Shown here one piece after another: positions 945 through 60,106 of a stretch of DNA of 60,677 nucleotides. The notes beneath the pieces are model-generated. The model had not been told where the DNA came from. It searched no databases and worked only from the letters and a program-made list of their open reading frames with translations. A program made the position numbers and the translations under genes. How positions within the stretch are numbered: the first letter of the stretch is position 1; each line of letters starts with the position of its first letter. Source of the DNA: an uncultured Lachnospiraceae bacterium (GTDB taxonomy: Bacteria; Bacillota; Clostridia; Lachnospirales; Lachnospiraceae); the NCBI GenBank assembly GCA_947385425.1, contig CANDKY010000008.1, positions 1 to 60,677 of the forward strand, read 5' to 3'.

Positions 945-1094
945 CATACGGTCAGAAATTAGATTTCCACTCTGCCTATTCACCATTGCCGCGTTAAAAT
1001 TTTTAGTCGATGCACCACATCGCCGTCGAAATTTAGCCTTGAACTGGCGAACCATGCAAAGCGGAAATCTAATTTCTGACCGTATGGAGCACTA
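939..1094. repeat. Palindromic element D, ends tnpA copy 1
   Basis: Inverted repeats of about 37 bp lie at 939-975 and 1056-1092; the shared part includes CATACGGTCAGAAATTAGAT. The right end carries CTAG, and on the minus strand this TAG is the stop codon of the neighbouring tnpA remnant. The interior has CCATTGCCGCGTT, also found in the element at 579-741. Confidence 0.8.
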
Positions 1095-3041: not shown

Positions 3042-3506
3042 AAGACGAGTGAGTATATACACAAATTACACAATGTATCAGTACTTATGTACCATTTTGT
3101 ATGTTCGGCAAAATATAGACGGGTAGTGATAGATGAGGAAGTAGATCAAGTTATCCGGGAGACATGTGAAGAGATAGAAAAACGGTATGAAATGAAATTC
3201 ATAGAGGTTAAAGATCACGTTCATTTTCTGATACAGTCTTTACCAGCATACAGTCCGCAAAAAATAATACAAAGAGTGAAAAGCATAATAGCTAAAGAAA
3301 TATTTGCAAAATGTCCATAGGTAAAAAAGAAATTATGGGGTGGTGAATATTGGAAAGACGGATATTATGTTGCCACAGTAGGAGAACATGGGAATGAAGC
3401 AGTGATATCAAAATATGTAAGAGAACAGGGACAAGAAAAAGAGTATAAGAAACTCTATCAAACCGAACTGGAGCCAAAAGAGTTGAGCTTATGGAATTAT
3501 ATGTAG
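3042..3506 (+). pseudogene. tnpA: IS200/IS605-type TnpA transposase, amber-interrupted, copy 2
   Basis: The reading gives KTSEYIHKLHNVSVLMYHFV, then AKYRRVVIDEE, the HUH motif DHVHFLIQ, and the catalytic region ISKYVREQG with tyrosine and the spaced glutamine. The family is the single-stranded-DNA Y1 transposase. Compared with copy 1, glutamine after AKCP has become TAG at 3318-3320, a single C-to-T change, and the frame stays open on both sides. No ordinary start codon precedes KTSEYIH in frame (TGT is in its place), so the 5' end is damaged too. All catalytic residues are intact, so inactivation looks more recent than in copy 1. The two copies point away from each other. Confidence 0.88.
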
Positions 3507-3954: not shown

Positions 3955-4213
3955 AAAATTTTCCACCTGTGCGGTTGGCGCCCTGTCCCCTCCCTGCGGC
4001 TCCTGGCTTCGATCCAACTGCAAAAATGAGATATTTCTAACGGTTTTTCCGGATAGATTTGCTGTCAGGCGGTGACTCCGCCAGAAACGGCAGCAAATCT
4101 ATCCGGAAAAGCCATAAAAAATCTTATTATTTTTTTGAATGGATTTTTCTTCTCCAGCGAAGCCAGAGGCCACAGGGAGGAGACAGGGCGCCAACCGCAC
4201 AGGTGGAAAATTT
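3955..4213. repeat. Giant palindrome C, copy 2
   Basis: Same architecture as 2538-2813: outer TTTTCCACCTGTGCGG / CCGCACAGGTGGAAAA, inner CGGATAGATTTGCTG / CAGCAAATCTATCCG, tip GGCGGTGACTCCGCC. Many differences between the copies are paired changes that keep the stem. The left arm has a short deletion (GGCTTCGATCC in place of the longer GGCTGCGCTGGAG run) that the right arm lacks. A strong terminator follows directly. Confidence 0.85.
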
Positions 4214-4226
4214 ATTTCAATATAAA

Positions 4227-6462: not shown

Positions 6463-7410
6463 ATGAAAAATAAATTAAACAAATTCATAATCTTGTCAGG
6501 GCTTACGGCAACTGCGATTCATTTTATTAACAGGATAAATTACTCATTATACACTGTTAAAAATTACCTCAACTATCCTGAAAATGCTTATCATGACTGG
6601 CGCTTTGGTAAAATAAGATATATTACAAAAGGAAATGGATACCCGCTCTTGCTTATACACGATTTGACCATAGGAAGCTCCCTGTATGAATTCAGCAAAA
6701 TTATTGACAAACTCTCTATAAATCACAAAATATATGCCATTGATTTATTGGGATACGGTTTGTCTGATAAGCCATGCATAACCTATACGAATTATCTCTA
6801 TGTACAGCTTGTCATTGATTTTATTAAAAATGTAATCGGTAAGAAAACAGACATAATAGCAACAGGTGATTCCACACAGATAGCTGTTATGGCATGCCAT
6901 AACGATCCCGAAGCAATCAACAAAATGATATTTATAAATCCTCAAAATTTATATGATACAAACAAAATTCCTTCCAAACAGACAAAACTGCTTCATCTAT
7001 TGATAGAAACCCCCATCCTGGGTACTTTCCTTTACAATATACTATCCACCAGAACATACATCGAAACTATATTCCGGCAGGAGTATTTGTACAGTCTCAT
7101 TAATCTGGAAGAACAGGATGTATTATCATACACAAAAGCTGCCCATCTGCCTGATTATAGTTCGAAACATGCATTTGCAAGCTATATATCAAAATATATG
7201 AATACAAATATCATACACGCTTTAAAAGAAATAAACCATGGAATGTATATCATAGGAGGACAGGAAGAGACTGATATTGAAACGATAATTGAAAATTATA
7301 CATATTATAACAATTCCATAGAATCGGAGCTCATCCCGTATACCAGACATCTTCCTCATATGGAAACACCGGATGAAATAATACCATATATTAATATGTT
7401 TCTTTGCTAG
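6463..7410 (+). CDS. Alpha/beta-hydrolase fold protein, divergent
   Basis: 315 residues with an N-terminal hydrophobic stretch (residues about 8-22) that could anchor the protein. The fold is seen in LLLIHDLTIGSS (strand 3 and oxyanion loop), YAIDLLGYGLSDKP, the nucleophile elbow ATGDSTQIA, and a late RHLPHMETPDEI with the catalytic-position histidine. The usual elbow is G-x-S-x-G; here the last glycine is glutamine, and the usual HG before the oxyanion hole is HD. Activity may be altered. Substrate is unknown. The gene is AT-rich. Its TAG stop codon (7408-7410) is the first three bases of palindromic element E. Confidence 0.75.
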   Translation: MKNKLNKFIILSGLTATAIHFINRINYSLYTVKNYLNYPENAYHDWRFGKIRYITKGNGYPLLLIHDLTIGSSLYEFSKIIDKLSINHKIYAIDLLGYGLSDKPCITYTNYLYVQLVIDFIKNVIGKKTDIIATGDSTQIAVMACHNDPEAINKMIFINPQNLYDTNKIPSKQTKLLHLLIETPILGTFLYNILSTRTYIETIFRQEYLYSLINLEEQDVLSYTKAAHLPDYSSKHAFASYISKYMNTNIIHALKEINHGMYIIGGQEETDIETIIENYTYYNNSIESELIPYTRHLPHMETPDEIIPYINMFLC

Positions 7411-7515
7411 AGCGTGTTTGAAATTTGTCAAGACTATTTGTCTTAATATCGCGCAAAGTGGTGAAGCGGTTATACCGCGTACAGATGGTGGGAATGATTT
7501 TTCAAACACGCTCTA
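7408..7515. repeat. Palindromic element E, complete, 108 bp
   Basis: Perfect terminal inverted repeats TAGAGCGTGTTTGAAA and TTTCAAACACGCTCTA bound the element. The interior TCTTAATATCGCGCAAAGTG also occurs in the decayed copy at 341-424. The left terminus supplies the TAG stop of the hydrolase gene. It encodes nothing and could also act as a transcript end. Confidence 0.9.
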
Positions 7516-14397: not shown

Positions 14398-14579
14398 AAA
14401 ACGGATTTGCGATGCTGCTGCACCGCAGCAGCACAAAACCAGCCATAAAAAACCTGGAAGAACGCCTCTTTCCAGGCGTTCTTCCGCGTGAAACGGGTTT
14501 GCCCATGCATCCTGCATGGCAAACCCTAGAAGTTCTTAAGTGGTGTACTTTACCACTTTAGAACTTCTTTTCACGCTAA
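14398..14579 (-). repeat. Palindromic terminator-like element F, copy 1
   Basis: On the minus strand this begins TTAGCGTGAAAAGAAG and contains a 16-bp stem (14529-14544 with 14552-14567), then a GAACGCC / GGCGTTC hairpin followed by a T-rich tract, then a perfect GCTGCTGC / GCAGCAGC hairpin at 14414-14432. A second copy lies at 57491-57655 in the other orientation. Its first nine bases encode the last two residues and TGA stop of rnpA. It divides rnpA from yidD. Confidence 0.88.
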
Positions 14580-14906
14580 GATATGATGAAGTTTCCCAAG
14601 ATGCAGTAACGCGCTCTCTATATCGGCATAAGAAACCGCCGACGCATTGTTCCTTGCAACGACTACTATATCTAAACCACTATTAAATATATTTTCATGT
14701 AGCCGGTAACTCTCTCTCACCAGTCTCGTAACCCTGTGGCGGACCACACTGTTCCCTACTTTTTTACTGACTGATATTCCAAGCCTGTTCCTGTCCATAT
14801 TATTTTCTAACACATACATAACAAGATACCGATTGGCATAGGACTTACCTTTTTTATAAACATTCCTGAAATCATAATTCTTTTTCAAAGATTCTGAGAA
14901 ATCCAT
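14571..14906 (-). CDS. rnpA: Ribonuclease P protein component
   Basis: 111 residues with the RnpA signatures: an early FRNVYKKGKSYANRYLVMYV and the RNR motif GNSVVRHRVTRLVRESYR. The protein binds the RNase P RNA and helps 5' processing of tRNA. ATG at 14906. The last codons (Leu, Ala, TGA) lie in the conserved end of repeat element F, so the natural C-terminus may have been replaced by the insertion. It follows rpmH after a hairpin. Confidence 0.96.
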   Translation of the reverse strand: MDFSESLKKNYDFRNVYKKGKSYANRYLVMYVLENNMDRNRLGISVSKKVGNSVVRHRVTRLVRESYRLHENIFNSGLDIVVVARNNASAVSYADIESALLHLGKLHHILA

Positions 14907-37572: not shown

Positions 37573-37806
37573 GCTTAGGAAGTGTATGTAAATAACCTAT
37601 GCCGTTTGCTGGTCTTTTTCTCCGATAGCAAGTTACTACGTAACTGCCCAAAATCAGTTACATAGCCCTAAGGAATCCACCATTCTGATACCCCCTTAGG
37701 GCAAAGCCCGCTATGCGCCCGATTTTGGGTAATTACGTAGTAATTTTGCACACTCAGAGAAAAATCCAGCGCAACTGTCACAGGTTATTTACATACAGTT
37801 CCTTAG
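37573..37806. repeat. Palindromic element A, complete, about 234 bp
   Basis: Outer arms (CTTAGGAAGTGTATGTAAAT on the left; the reverse strand of the right end reads CTAAGGAACTGTATGTAAAT) pair over about 85 bp, including GTTACTACGTAA / TTACGTAGTAA and CCCAAAATC / GATTTTGGG. The interior has a CCCTAAGG / CCTTAGGG hairpin. Partial copies occur at 7672-7743 and 24669-24736. On the minus strand the right terminus supplies the TAA stop of the next gene. Confidence 0.9.
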
Positions 37807-38609
37807 TCGTCGGGGTTCTGCAAAAGATGGATATTATCCTTTGCGTCATGGATATCTTCCAATGTATCACGGATATCATACAACGTAAACAGGTATTTGA
37901 TATATTGGATTACCGTTTCCGTCCGCGGCGTATTCGCAATCACGCCCAGATACACCGTATCCCCAAAACCGGCCGACCGGATCAGTTTTGTTTCGGATAA
38001 GTCCAGCCCGTAGCAATGTTCTTTCGTTACTGCCTGATAGGGCAGGGACGGGTCAAGGGCAAGGTCATCCGCATTGTCTTCCAGAATGACGATATTGCTG
38101 GCAAGGGCAGGTTTCAGGGTTTCGTATAAATCCGGGTCATTTGCGGCGAGGAAGCCGTCAAGGTCATACAGATATCCGTTTTGGGAAAAGGCGTCGAAGG
38201 CTTCCTTATTCATGAGGACTATGTCCATCAGCTTCCCTTCAATAGCGGCCAGGATTTTCATACGCGAAGCATAGGTATATTCGTGGTAAGCATTCAGTTC
38301 GTCGTCCGTCAGATAAAGTCCGGTATACAGCTCCAGTTCACAGGAGGAAGGATCCGCTTCCAGATAATCAAGAAAATCGTTTTCTAACGTTTCCGTCAGG
38401 GTTTCCCCGGTGGTCACGTTTACCAAAGCAGTGTAGAGAAGGATGTCCTTATGGGTGAGTCTGCCATAAATGTGATAGCCGGTAAAGTACAGGAAGATGC
38501 AGAGGATGGCAAGGGGAAATTTATAGTAGCACAGGATATGCTGCATTTTTTTTCGTCCGTGCAGTGTATTCAGATTGTCATCTTTCAGCAATACAGACAG
38601 ATGTTTCAT
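37803..38609 (-). CDS. Membrane-anchored extracytoplasmic protein of unknown function
   Basis: 268 residues with a basic cytoplasmic N-terminus, one membrane segment at about 33-50, then a soluble domain. No named family is recognised. Parts of the soluble domain (KLMDIVLMNKEAFDAFSQNG, YLYDLDGFLAA) resemble the core of solute-binding proteins, so it may be a degenerate sugar-binding sensor. It follows a YesL-like gene by 42 bp in the same orientation. The TAA stop lies in palindromic element A, so the original C-terminus may be altered. Confidence 0.7.
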   Translation of the reverse strand: MKHLSVLLKDDNLNTLHGRKKMQHILCYYKFPLAILCIFLYFTGYHIYGRLTHKDILLYTALVNVTTGETLTETLENDFLDYLEADPSSCELELYTGLYLTDDELNAYHEYTYASRMKILAAIEGKLMDIVLMNKEAFDAFSQNGYLYDLDGFLAANDPDLYETLKPALASNIVILEDNADDLALDPSLPYQAVTKEHCYGLDLSETKLIRSAGFGDTVYLGVIANTPRTETVIQYIKYLFTLYDIRDTLEDIHDAKDNIHLLQNPDD

Positions 38610-56588: not shown

Positions 56589-57494
56589 ATGATACAGTCA
56601 AAGAGTGAAAAAATATATCAGGTTGTGGCCCATATCATACTGATGTTAATGGTGTTTTGTGTGGTTATGCCTTTTATACTGCTGTTTATGTCGTCCATTA
56701 CCGATGAAAATACGTTAATCCAGAACGGTTATTCTTATTTCCCGGAGAAATTCAGCCTGACTGCATATAAGTATATATGGAACCAGCGCAGTAAAGTGTT
56801 CAGGGCATACGGTATGACGATACTGGTAACGGCAGCAGGTACCATGATAAATGTAGGGATGTCGGCTATGCTGGCTTACGGCTTATCCAAGGCAAAGCTT
56901 CCCTGCAGAAGGTTTTTCTCCTTTTATGTATTCTTTACTATGCTGTTTAATGGCGGGCTCGTTCCGACTTATATGATGTATACGGGAACCTTCCATATCA
57001 AAAATACAATTTTTGCATTGATTGTCCCAAGTTTCATGATGAGCGCAATGAATGTTATCCTGATACGGACTTTTTATCAGAGCAGCATTCCGGATGCTTT
57101 ATATGAAGCGGCGGAGATAGACGGAGCAGGCCCGTTTAAAGTATTTACAACAATAGCGCTTCCTCTCGGCAAGCCGATTCTGGTAACAATGGGATTGTTT
57201 TCTGCATTGGGGTACTGGAATGACTGGACAAACGGCCTGTATTATTTATCCGGTACGGAGGGGCAGAATCTGTATACAATACAGAACCTGCTGAACCAGA
57301 TGATGTCTCAGATTGAGTTCCTGTCGTCGAACAGTACTGCGGCGAGCGCGGCAAGCTCCGATATAGCAAAGGTACCGCAGACAGCCGTGCGTATGGCTAT
57401 CGCATTTGTGGCGATGCTGCCGATGCTGGTGATTTACCCGTTCCTGCAGAAATATTTCCAGAAAGGGATTGCGCTTGGTGCCGTTAAAGGTTAG
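56589..57494 (+). CDS. Sugar ABC transporter permease, LplC type (system 2)
   Basis: 301 residues, six membrane segments, EAA loop ALYEAAEIDGAGPFKVFTTI, end FLQKYFQKGIALGAVKG. GAAGGAGGG precedes ATG 56589. The TAG stop (57492-57494) lies in the conserved first bases of repeat element F. The end KG matches the permease of system 1, so the C-terminus appears intact. Confidence 0.93.
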   Translation: MIQSKSEKIYQVVAHIILMLMVFCVVMPFILLFMSSITDENTLIQNGYSYFPEKFSLTAYKYIWNQRSKVFRAYGMTILVTAAGTMINVGMSAMLAYGLSKAKLPCRRFFSFYVFFTMLFNGGLVPTYMMYTGTFHIKNTIFALIVPSFMMSAMNVILIRTFYQSSIPDALYEAAEIDGAGPFKVFTTIALPLGKPILVTMGLFSALGYWNDWTNGLYYLSGTEGQNLYTIQNLLNQMMSQIEFLSSNSTAASAASSDIAKVPQTAVRMAIAFVAMLPMLVIYPFLQKYFQKGIALGAVKG

Positions 57495-57655
57495 CGTGAA
57501 AAGAAGTTCTAAAGTGGTAGAGTACACCACTTAAGAACTTCTAGGATTTGCCATGCGTAGCATTGCAAATCCATTTCACGCGGAAAAACGCCGGGAAAGA
57601 GGCGTTTTTCCAGGTTTTTTATGGTCAATTTGTGCTGCCGGAGCGCGAATCCATT
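57491..57655 (+). repeat. Palindromic terminator-like element F, copy 2
   Basis: Begins TTAGCGTGAAAAGAAG like the copy at 14398-14579. It carries the 16-bp stem 57503-57518 / 57526-57541, then GAAAAACGCC / GGCGTTTTTC with a T tract. The second hairpin unit is repeated imperfectly at about 57645-57700. TTAGCGTGA contains TAG and TGA in two different frames. Confidence 0.88.
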
Positions 57656-57787
57656 TACGCGGAAAAATACCGGGAGAGAGGCGTTTTTCCAGATTTTTGC
57701 AATAAATTATTGGGGAATTGAGGGAAATGTTCCTGATAAGGGATAAATATTCTATAAAAATCTAATAAAGGAAGGAGAAAGATTATT

Positions 57788-59583: not shown

Positions 59584-59917
59584 TTTGGTGAGGTTAACCG
59601 TTTGAGCCAGTCTGTTCCTCTTCATCTGGAGCATGTTTTGCTTGGCTAAATTTCTATCTGCGTCGTTGGTCTACACTCCGTTTCGGTTCACACTGAACAT
59701 GTGCCACTGGGCTTTTTTAGCATCATTTTCTAAACCGTCAATATCATCTGATATTTTGACCTCTAGAATAAATGCCCCTGTCGGCAATGGTTTCCTCATT
59801 ATCATATATCCATCATAATACCGTTTTTCATATTATACTCTGTCTTCCCCTGTTTCACAATCAGTTTCGTTTAGCAGCCGGGAAGCTGTCTCCTGAATAC
59901 GTTACAGTTCACAATTC

Positions 59918-60106
59918 AATGTCATTAACTTAAGCTTTTCGGGGCGCTGCAGACCACATATCTCATCCGGGCGCGCTTTCGCTCAGCGGCAGACGCAACG
60001 GCACTAAGGCGCCAAAACACGTCGCCTAAGTGCCGGCGTCTTTCAATGGTCCGGATTGAGATATATGGTCTGCAGCACCCCGAAAAGCTTAAATTAATGA
60101 CATTGG
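59918..60106. repeat. Palindromic element B, complete, about 189 bp
   Basis: The left arm 59918-59970 and right arm 60046-60106 pair over about 53 bp with a few changes (AAGCTTTTCGGGG / CCCCGAAAAGCTT, CTGCAGACCA / TGGTCTGCAG). The core has a second hairpin, GCACTAAGGCG / CGCCTAAGTGC flanked by GACGC / GGCGTC. A single arm occurs at 1-60 and the terminal AATGTCATTAACTTAAG again at 60613-60629. Confidence 0.88.

Follow-up and report, generated by a model that had tools for sequence, protein, structure and literature searches.

A family of structured, REP-like repeats at the stop codons of genes in an uncultured Lachnospiraceae bacterium

RAYTs prefer hairpins that carry mismatches. In GTAG-tagged REPs (repetitive extragenic palindromes), the termini are reported often to supply the TAG stop codon to flanking ORFs (PMC3733652). 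Of 4,072 REPs in E. coli, 446 are reported to be no more than 15 nt from a stop codon and are in that sense translation-linked (PMC12306157). Here, similar overlaps were analyzed in a 60,677-nt stretch of DNA (the window) from an uncultured Lachnospiraceae bacterium, which is an entire contig of a 4.42 Mb, 198-contig genome.

A preliminary description of the window had named five places where palindromic repeats of four unrelated families (A, D, E and F) supply the stop codon of a neighboring gene, and all five overlaps are present in the sequence when the junctions are re-read. An ABC transporter permease gene (56589–57494, plus strand; Pfam BPD_transp_1) ends GGT TAG, its TAG (57492–57494) being the start of TTAGCGTGAAAAG in the first copy of element F (57491–57620, plus strand). 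The ribonuclease P protein gene rnpA (14571–14906, minus strand; Pfam) ends TTA GCG TGA, with the TGA (14571–14573) inside the second copy of F (14447–14579, minus strand). An alpha/beta hydrolase gene ends TGC TAG at 7408–7410 (plus strand) on element E, and the first copy of an IS200-type transposase gene, tnpA, stops with a TAG (1092–1094, minus strand) carried by the edge of element D (930–1095). Finally, a gene without a Pfam match (37803–38609, minus strand) stops with a TAA (37803–37805) inside the right-hand TTA of element A. The overlaps are real, but they have two explanations: A and E have the look of ordinary MITEs, and F is different.

Both A and E have the terminal inverted repeats and target duplication of a MITE and resemble common mobile repeats that landed by chance at stops. 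The ends of A (37578–37802, plus strand; TTA repeated at 37575–37577 and 37803–37805) read GGAACTGTATGTAAA, with identical three bases (TTA, TAA or TAT) on either side in 13 of 16 two-ended copies, counted by eye. Those of E (7410–7513, plus strand; 14-bp terminal inverted repeats; TA repeated at 7408–7409 and 7514–7515) read GAGCGTGTTTGAAA, with TA on either side in both two-ended copies (n = 2). The hydrolase TAG combines the target TA with the opening base of E; were E absent, the flanks would give TGC TAA. Because the stops at 37803 and 7408 sit in the duplicated target, they probably predate the insertions, as judged from the flanks. Ends within 5 nt of a stop amount to 3 of 27 for A and 3 of 44 for E (retrieved stretches, frames of at least 80 codons), which fits a TA-containing target between genes. 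The excess over chance proposed in the preliminary description reduces, for A and E, to the small one expected from such a target. Read as a rule for all four families the proposal is not supported: it holds for F, but A and E mostly lie away from stops. Element D, which offered a single usable end for the stop-distance count, truncated the first tnpA copy, which stops about 24 residues short of where its closest relatives end (identity 63% and 59%).

The window contains two Y1 transposase genes (1092–1430 and 3075–3428), and no others were found in this genome; an in-frame TAG lies in one, and the other is shortened by element D. Direct repeats of 210 nt (85% alike) at 2608–2817 and 4012–4221 flank the second transposase gene. 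One repeat is common to both contig ends (2–66 and 59917–60110, with a long palindrome at 59917–60105), and the contig probably breaks there because of it.

Copies of F were collected by searching the genome with the window copy, which gave at least 47 matches after the scoring of 40 out of 88 candidates. Near matches within the retrieved stretches were also taken, and the copy number is a lower bound and not a census, at least two further copies lying outside the sample (C70:15038 and C96:11626). The 47 near-complete copies, drawn from 100 stretches, were aligned (46 of the 47 in alignment A1, which omits L046). Four are second units of head-to-tail arrays and were excluded from stop counts, leaving 43 first units. 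A stop was counted when a frame of at least 80 codons ended within 5 nt of the element end (−5 to +5). By this measure, the stop of the upstream sense gene falls at the first bases of F in 37 of 43 first units. The corresponding figures are 1.8% for 20,000 positions drawn at random from either strand of these stretches and 6 of 71 ends for A plus E (Fisher p = 2e-17 for F against A plus E). Read antisense, and with unit length assumed, the right end of F is at a stop in 2 of 47 copies. Among the 41 first units with a frame of at least 80 codons, the distance is 0 (TAG or TAA) in 16 and +5 (TGA) in 17; the others are at −1 (two), −3, −4, +18 (two), +40 and −64. Six first units do not fit the stop focus (L014, L016, L017, L023, L030 and L100).

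The genes upstream of F are real genes, since 23 of the 30 scanned have a Pfam family at 1e-8, as do the permease and rnpA. They include GalK, FtsX, FlgK and SipL domains, a PASTA kinase, NIF3, PBP, a MutS domain, MCP and glycosyl transferases. The longest frame downstream is co-directional in 35 of 43 cases, for example galK-galT (frames rather than gene calls). F sits sense-oriented on or beside the stops of ordinary genes far beyond chance, and its first bases often do the stopping; the preliminary description had supposed such an excess at stops for all the repeats. Two copies without a long frame ahead (L030 near 2501 and L014 near 2565) have a TATAAT-like sequence immediately before the element; a free-standing RNA or insertion behind a promoter is possible there.

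The ends of F-bearing genes were compared with those of relatives. For galK, rnpA and ftsX, the less distant 46 of 75 relatives' loci were considered (16 of 21, 15 of 25 and 15 of 29, respectively), and 36 of the upstream proteins were compared against the retrieved loci, with at most five relatives shown per gene. In all 15 relatives shown, FtsX ends RKHLRV at the same codon with no element, and 83 of 84 permease homologues end at the same residue, although these are mostly not orthologues (63% identity or less) and one is a paralogue in this genome. At these two genes a native stop was already in place when F landed there. The stop codons of rnpA, galK and nif3, by contrast, are element-borne. 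RnpA ends HHILA here, HHILKIFFY in the nearest relative and HHIIKIFFYEV in most congeners, and is 3–6 residues shorter than in the 12 congeners shown, but not so against the more distant G018 and G072. GalK ends GPSKLV on the TGA of F, whereas endings such as GPSVL, GPSVLD and GPSEICN occur in the 16 relatives shown; its length is within one residue in 15 of them, and G010 is three residues longer. NIF3 is within one residue in 15 of 15 relatives shown. Three genomes have elements of different variants behind nif3 (this one, G015 and G004, the last with its element a codon earlier), and in the other 13 relatives shown no element was seen by eye in the next 117 nt.

Altogether, ten F genes were compared, five with the stop at 0 (permease, ftsX, L037, L012 and L046) and five with TGA (nif3, L031, L045, galK and rnpA). 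The ends at L037 (five relatives), L046 (one) and L012 (one) match those of relatives, the single L012 relative (G037) carrying an element there too, and those at L031 and L045, each with a single relative, are one residue apart. The L037 gene of G009 has TAT TAG at its end, which means that a TTAG was available. The preliminary description had set an element-borne stop against one shared with orthologues lacking the element; the genes divide between the two, permease and ftsX sharing their stop and rnpA, galK and nif3 ending on that of F. The relatives without F point to insertion, although intergenic DNA between species is too diverged to place the right junction or a clean empty site.

The start of F offers stops in two frames, as first described, and both TAG/TAA and TGA are used as gene stops. 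One frame analysis used 129 of 132 matches (omitting the partial matches L122 1601–1651, L137 1601–1651 and L290 1596–1647). The main frame test covered this genome and G001, G004, G009, G012, G013 and G015. In these seven genomes, whose copies are not fully independent between related species, 72 two-stop first units have a gene frame. The gene runs into the element in 56 of them, of which 31 stop at TAG/TAA (0), 23 at TGA (+5) and 2 are in the third frame (with one third expected, binomial p = 9e-8). In the remaining 16 the gene stop lies upstream of the element, more than 5 nt away in 11. Of 14 copies that keep TAG/TAA but lack TGA, 11 are entered and all 11 stop at 0 (Fisher p = 0.006). 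This genome alone gives 14 at 0, 15 at +5 and 1 in the third frame, with 3 of 3 TGA-less copies at 0, and over all genomes analyzed the third frame accounts for 3 of 57. Such a distribution bears the signature of selection for an immediate stop. By itself, however, selection leaves unexplained why F is scarce slightly past the stop in this genome, which argues for targeting, or for a benefit at that place.

The left end of F reads (T)TAG-YGTGA. In 44 copies (one second unit besides the 43 first units), TA is preceded by T in 34, G in 8 and A in 2; the next positions are T in 37, A in all 44, and G in 40 or A in 4. Most copies carry NTAG. The base before TA is likely target sequence, at least in part, because near-identical copies differ there. 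Complete units end ..GGCAGCATGTTGG or close to it, with TTA next in 12 of 13, mostly starting another unit, and one copy (L033) has GTA on its left and TTA on its right. An 8-bp inverted repeat closes the left module only, and the right-hand junction is not clean, most copies running into further repeat units. A second unit type (TTAGTGTGAAAT..ATTTCAC..GCCCGC..GCGGGC..GGGAG) is strung with F in arrays and has the start motif in common (L015 at about 2675–2750; L017, L041 and L043).

Over its 130–170 nt, F has four helices and is predicted to fold as a three-way junction plus a terminator-like hairpin. The folding energy of the window copy as RNA is −68.5 kcal/mol (z −8.5), with the outer stem GCGTGAAA/TTTCACGC around two hairpins. 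The consensus comprises an 8-pair outer stem, a long hairpin whose CUAAG/CUAAG helix contains an A-A mismatch, another hairpin and the terminator-like hairpin. Double changes occur at 14 of 41 pairs in 45 distinct copies. Of five covariation measures, four lie above every shuffle, the exception being the number of pair types. Between species, 11 of 21 pairs have double changes. The outer stem contributes 7 of its 8 pairs (10 sequences), its sequence being almost wholly altered, whereas the CUAAG hairpin varies little. Searches of the window and four relatives against Rfam gave no match at gathering score, the weak matches being far below.

The observed position, orientation, frame bias, presence and absence between species, and conserved fold of F can be joined in one account, which we hold with moderate confidence: F would be a species-level expansion of an older structured, REP-like family, inserted in the sense direction at gene ends, with a stop that is either native or its own. 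The element would insert at or close to the native stop, beside a probable TTA or GTA target. Translation entering its left end would stop at once in two of three frames, and third-frame copies would mostly not be kept. The resulting stop would be either a native one, now common to gene and element, or the element's own. In the RNA, the junction and hairpin would form right behind the stop, mostly between co-directional genes, where F probably affects mRNA 3' ends, read-through or translation termination as intercistronic REPs do. The element would be mobile, although no mobilizing enzyme was found.

Alternatively, F could be functional cargo, kept at stops since it is useful there (by 3'-end protection, as a downstream brake, or by slow termination, as for REPs within 15 nt) and lost elsewhere. 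We regard this as a real possibility, if somewhat short of an even one. Sense orientation, compensatory structure and a place mostly between co-directional frames all agree with it, as do relatives of the element in other genomes. A covariance model found the family in 18 of 116 genomes, including this one, in 7 genera; a single weak match in G052 (L128) looks false, which leaves 17 genomes in 6 genera, five besides its own. No match to F was found in plasmids and phages. In five genomes of two genera (G001, G002, G003, G011 and G046), a relative of F immediately follows rpsH (S8) (L287, L291, L295, L123 and L120), and in G004 and G015 one immediately follows the S14 gene (L248 and L260), S8 and S14 being named from sequence alone. 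These elements sit inside the ribosomal protein operon, with an outer stem altered by compensatory pairs between species. Since G011 has no listed match apart from the S8 one, they speak for a working RNA, at least at those sites.

Against functional cargo, the F-bearing genes have no evident common theme, copy numbers differ sharply between congeners, and the variants behind nif3 are not the same in three species, one sitting a codon earlier.

As a point against the main account, stop overlap varies between carriers. Among best matches, which are no census, stops lie within 5 nt in 16 of 20 framed copies in G004 (23 first units in all), 10 of 16 in G012 (25), 6 of 8 in G013 (9) and 8 of 13 in G015 (14), and in 0 of 4 in both G057 (8) and G014 (5). 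In G057, G014 and G008 most or all framed copies lie 23–81 nt past the stop, and the stop focus is therefore not a property of the whole family. A variant with ..AAAACATTAAGAAAC.. at its start often has TAA/TAG at or just before its first bases (L270, L271 and L273–L275 in G013; L259, L263 and L265 in G015).

The family might instead belong to the GTAG-REP superfamily and have been moved by a tyrosine transposase that is now lost or not recognized. NTAG at the foot of a stem, a mismatched hairpin, a place behind genes and TAG used as the stop all recall what is reported for GTAG REPs (PMC3733652). However, F is 130–170 nt long instead of 20–40 and begins mainly with TTAG, and several carriers lack a Y1 gene (Pfam Y1_Tnp was not found in G012, G057, G001 and G037), so we consider such membership rather unlikely. 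A Y1 transposase as the present mover of F was rejected, as Y1 counts do not follow F. No F copy lies near either Y1 gene of this genome. A likeness of the ends to group II introns or integron attC sites was weighed and dropped.

Portable intrinsic terminators, one of the explanations offered in the preliminary description, would account for the terminator-like hairpin of F (helix 4; 57582–57611, plus strand). It has 11 pairs followed by AGGTTTTTTA, was called as a terminator-like site in the first window copy, and is kept in the 46 aligned copies. A second, partial copy of this module (repeat family D2) lies at 57654–57698 on the plus strand. Yet with the downstream frame mostly running in the same direction, related elements inside a ribosomal protein operon and the T tract interrupted in a number of copies, this explanation is unlikely.

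A more speculative proposal, and an improbable one in our estimate, is that F homes to stop codons, being guided to the end of translation. Its own two-frame stops would make a landing within about a codon of the native stop harmless, and an old 3'-end RNA structure, found also behind ribosomal protein genes, would have turned mobile in some species. The route could be, for example, single-stranded sense DNA exposed where ribosomes leave nascent RNA, or insertion at the RNA level. Very unlikely is a history in which F inserted at random at TTA and harmful copies were then purged, with neither targeting nor function: purging is evidently at work, the third frame being rare and TGA-less copies absent from the TGA frame, but alone it predicts that insertions some way past the stop are commonest, as for A and E here, and these are rare for F.

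If such repeats can be aimed at stops, or are kept mainly there, they would give genes a mobile layer of ends, exchangeable between operons with the proteins left intact. With many copies, element-free sites and species-specific variants, F makes the role and arrival of REP-like structures at stop codons directly testable. A literature search covering titles and the openings of abstracts found no published description of the family, which is not proof of absence.

Among known systems, F resembles MITEs, such as A and E here, in being short and repeated, with palindromic ends and no coding capacity seen, but terminal inverted repeats with a target duplication of 2–3 bp were seen at A and E, which are rarely on stops. 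With intrinsic terminators F has in common a sense-oriented hairpin and a T tract, but this hairpin is part of a larger conserved fold and lies mostly between co-directional frames. Like the E. coli REPs near stops, F places a stable structure directly behind the stop; in E. coli a minority of REPs lie so near (PMC12306157), whereas F often contains the stop itself. The closest known kind is the GTAG-tagged REPs, likewise palindromic and located behind genes, with NTAG marking one end and termini that often supply TAG stops (PMC3733652). F is similarly present in many copies (47 near-complete), with 41 of 43 first units downstream of a frame of at least 80 codons. Membership in the GTAG REPs fails on size and transposase: in place of a 20–40 bp palindrome, F has a three-way junction and a second hairpin, mostly with TTAG, and it is sense-oriented, arrayed head to tail and concentrated on stops, without a matching RAYT/Y1 gene. 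By this comparison, F would work like the stop-proximal REPs.
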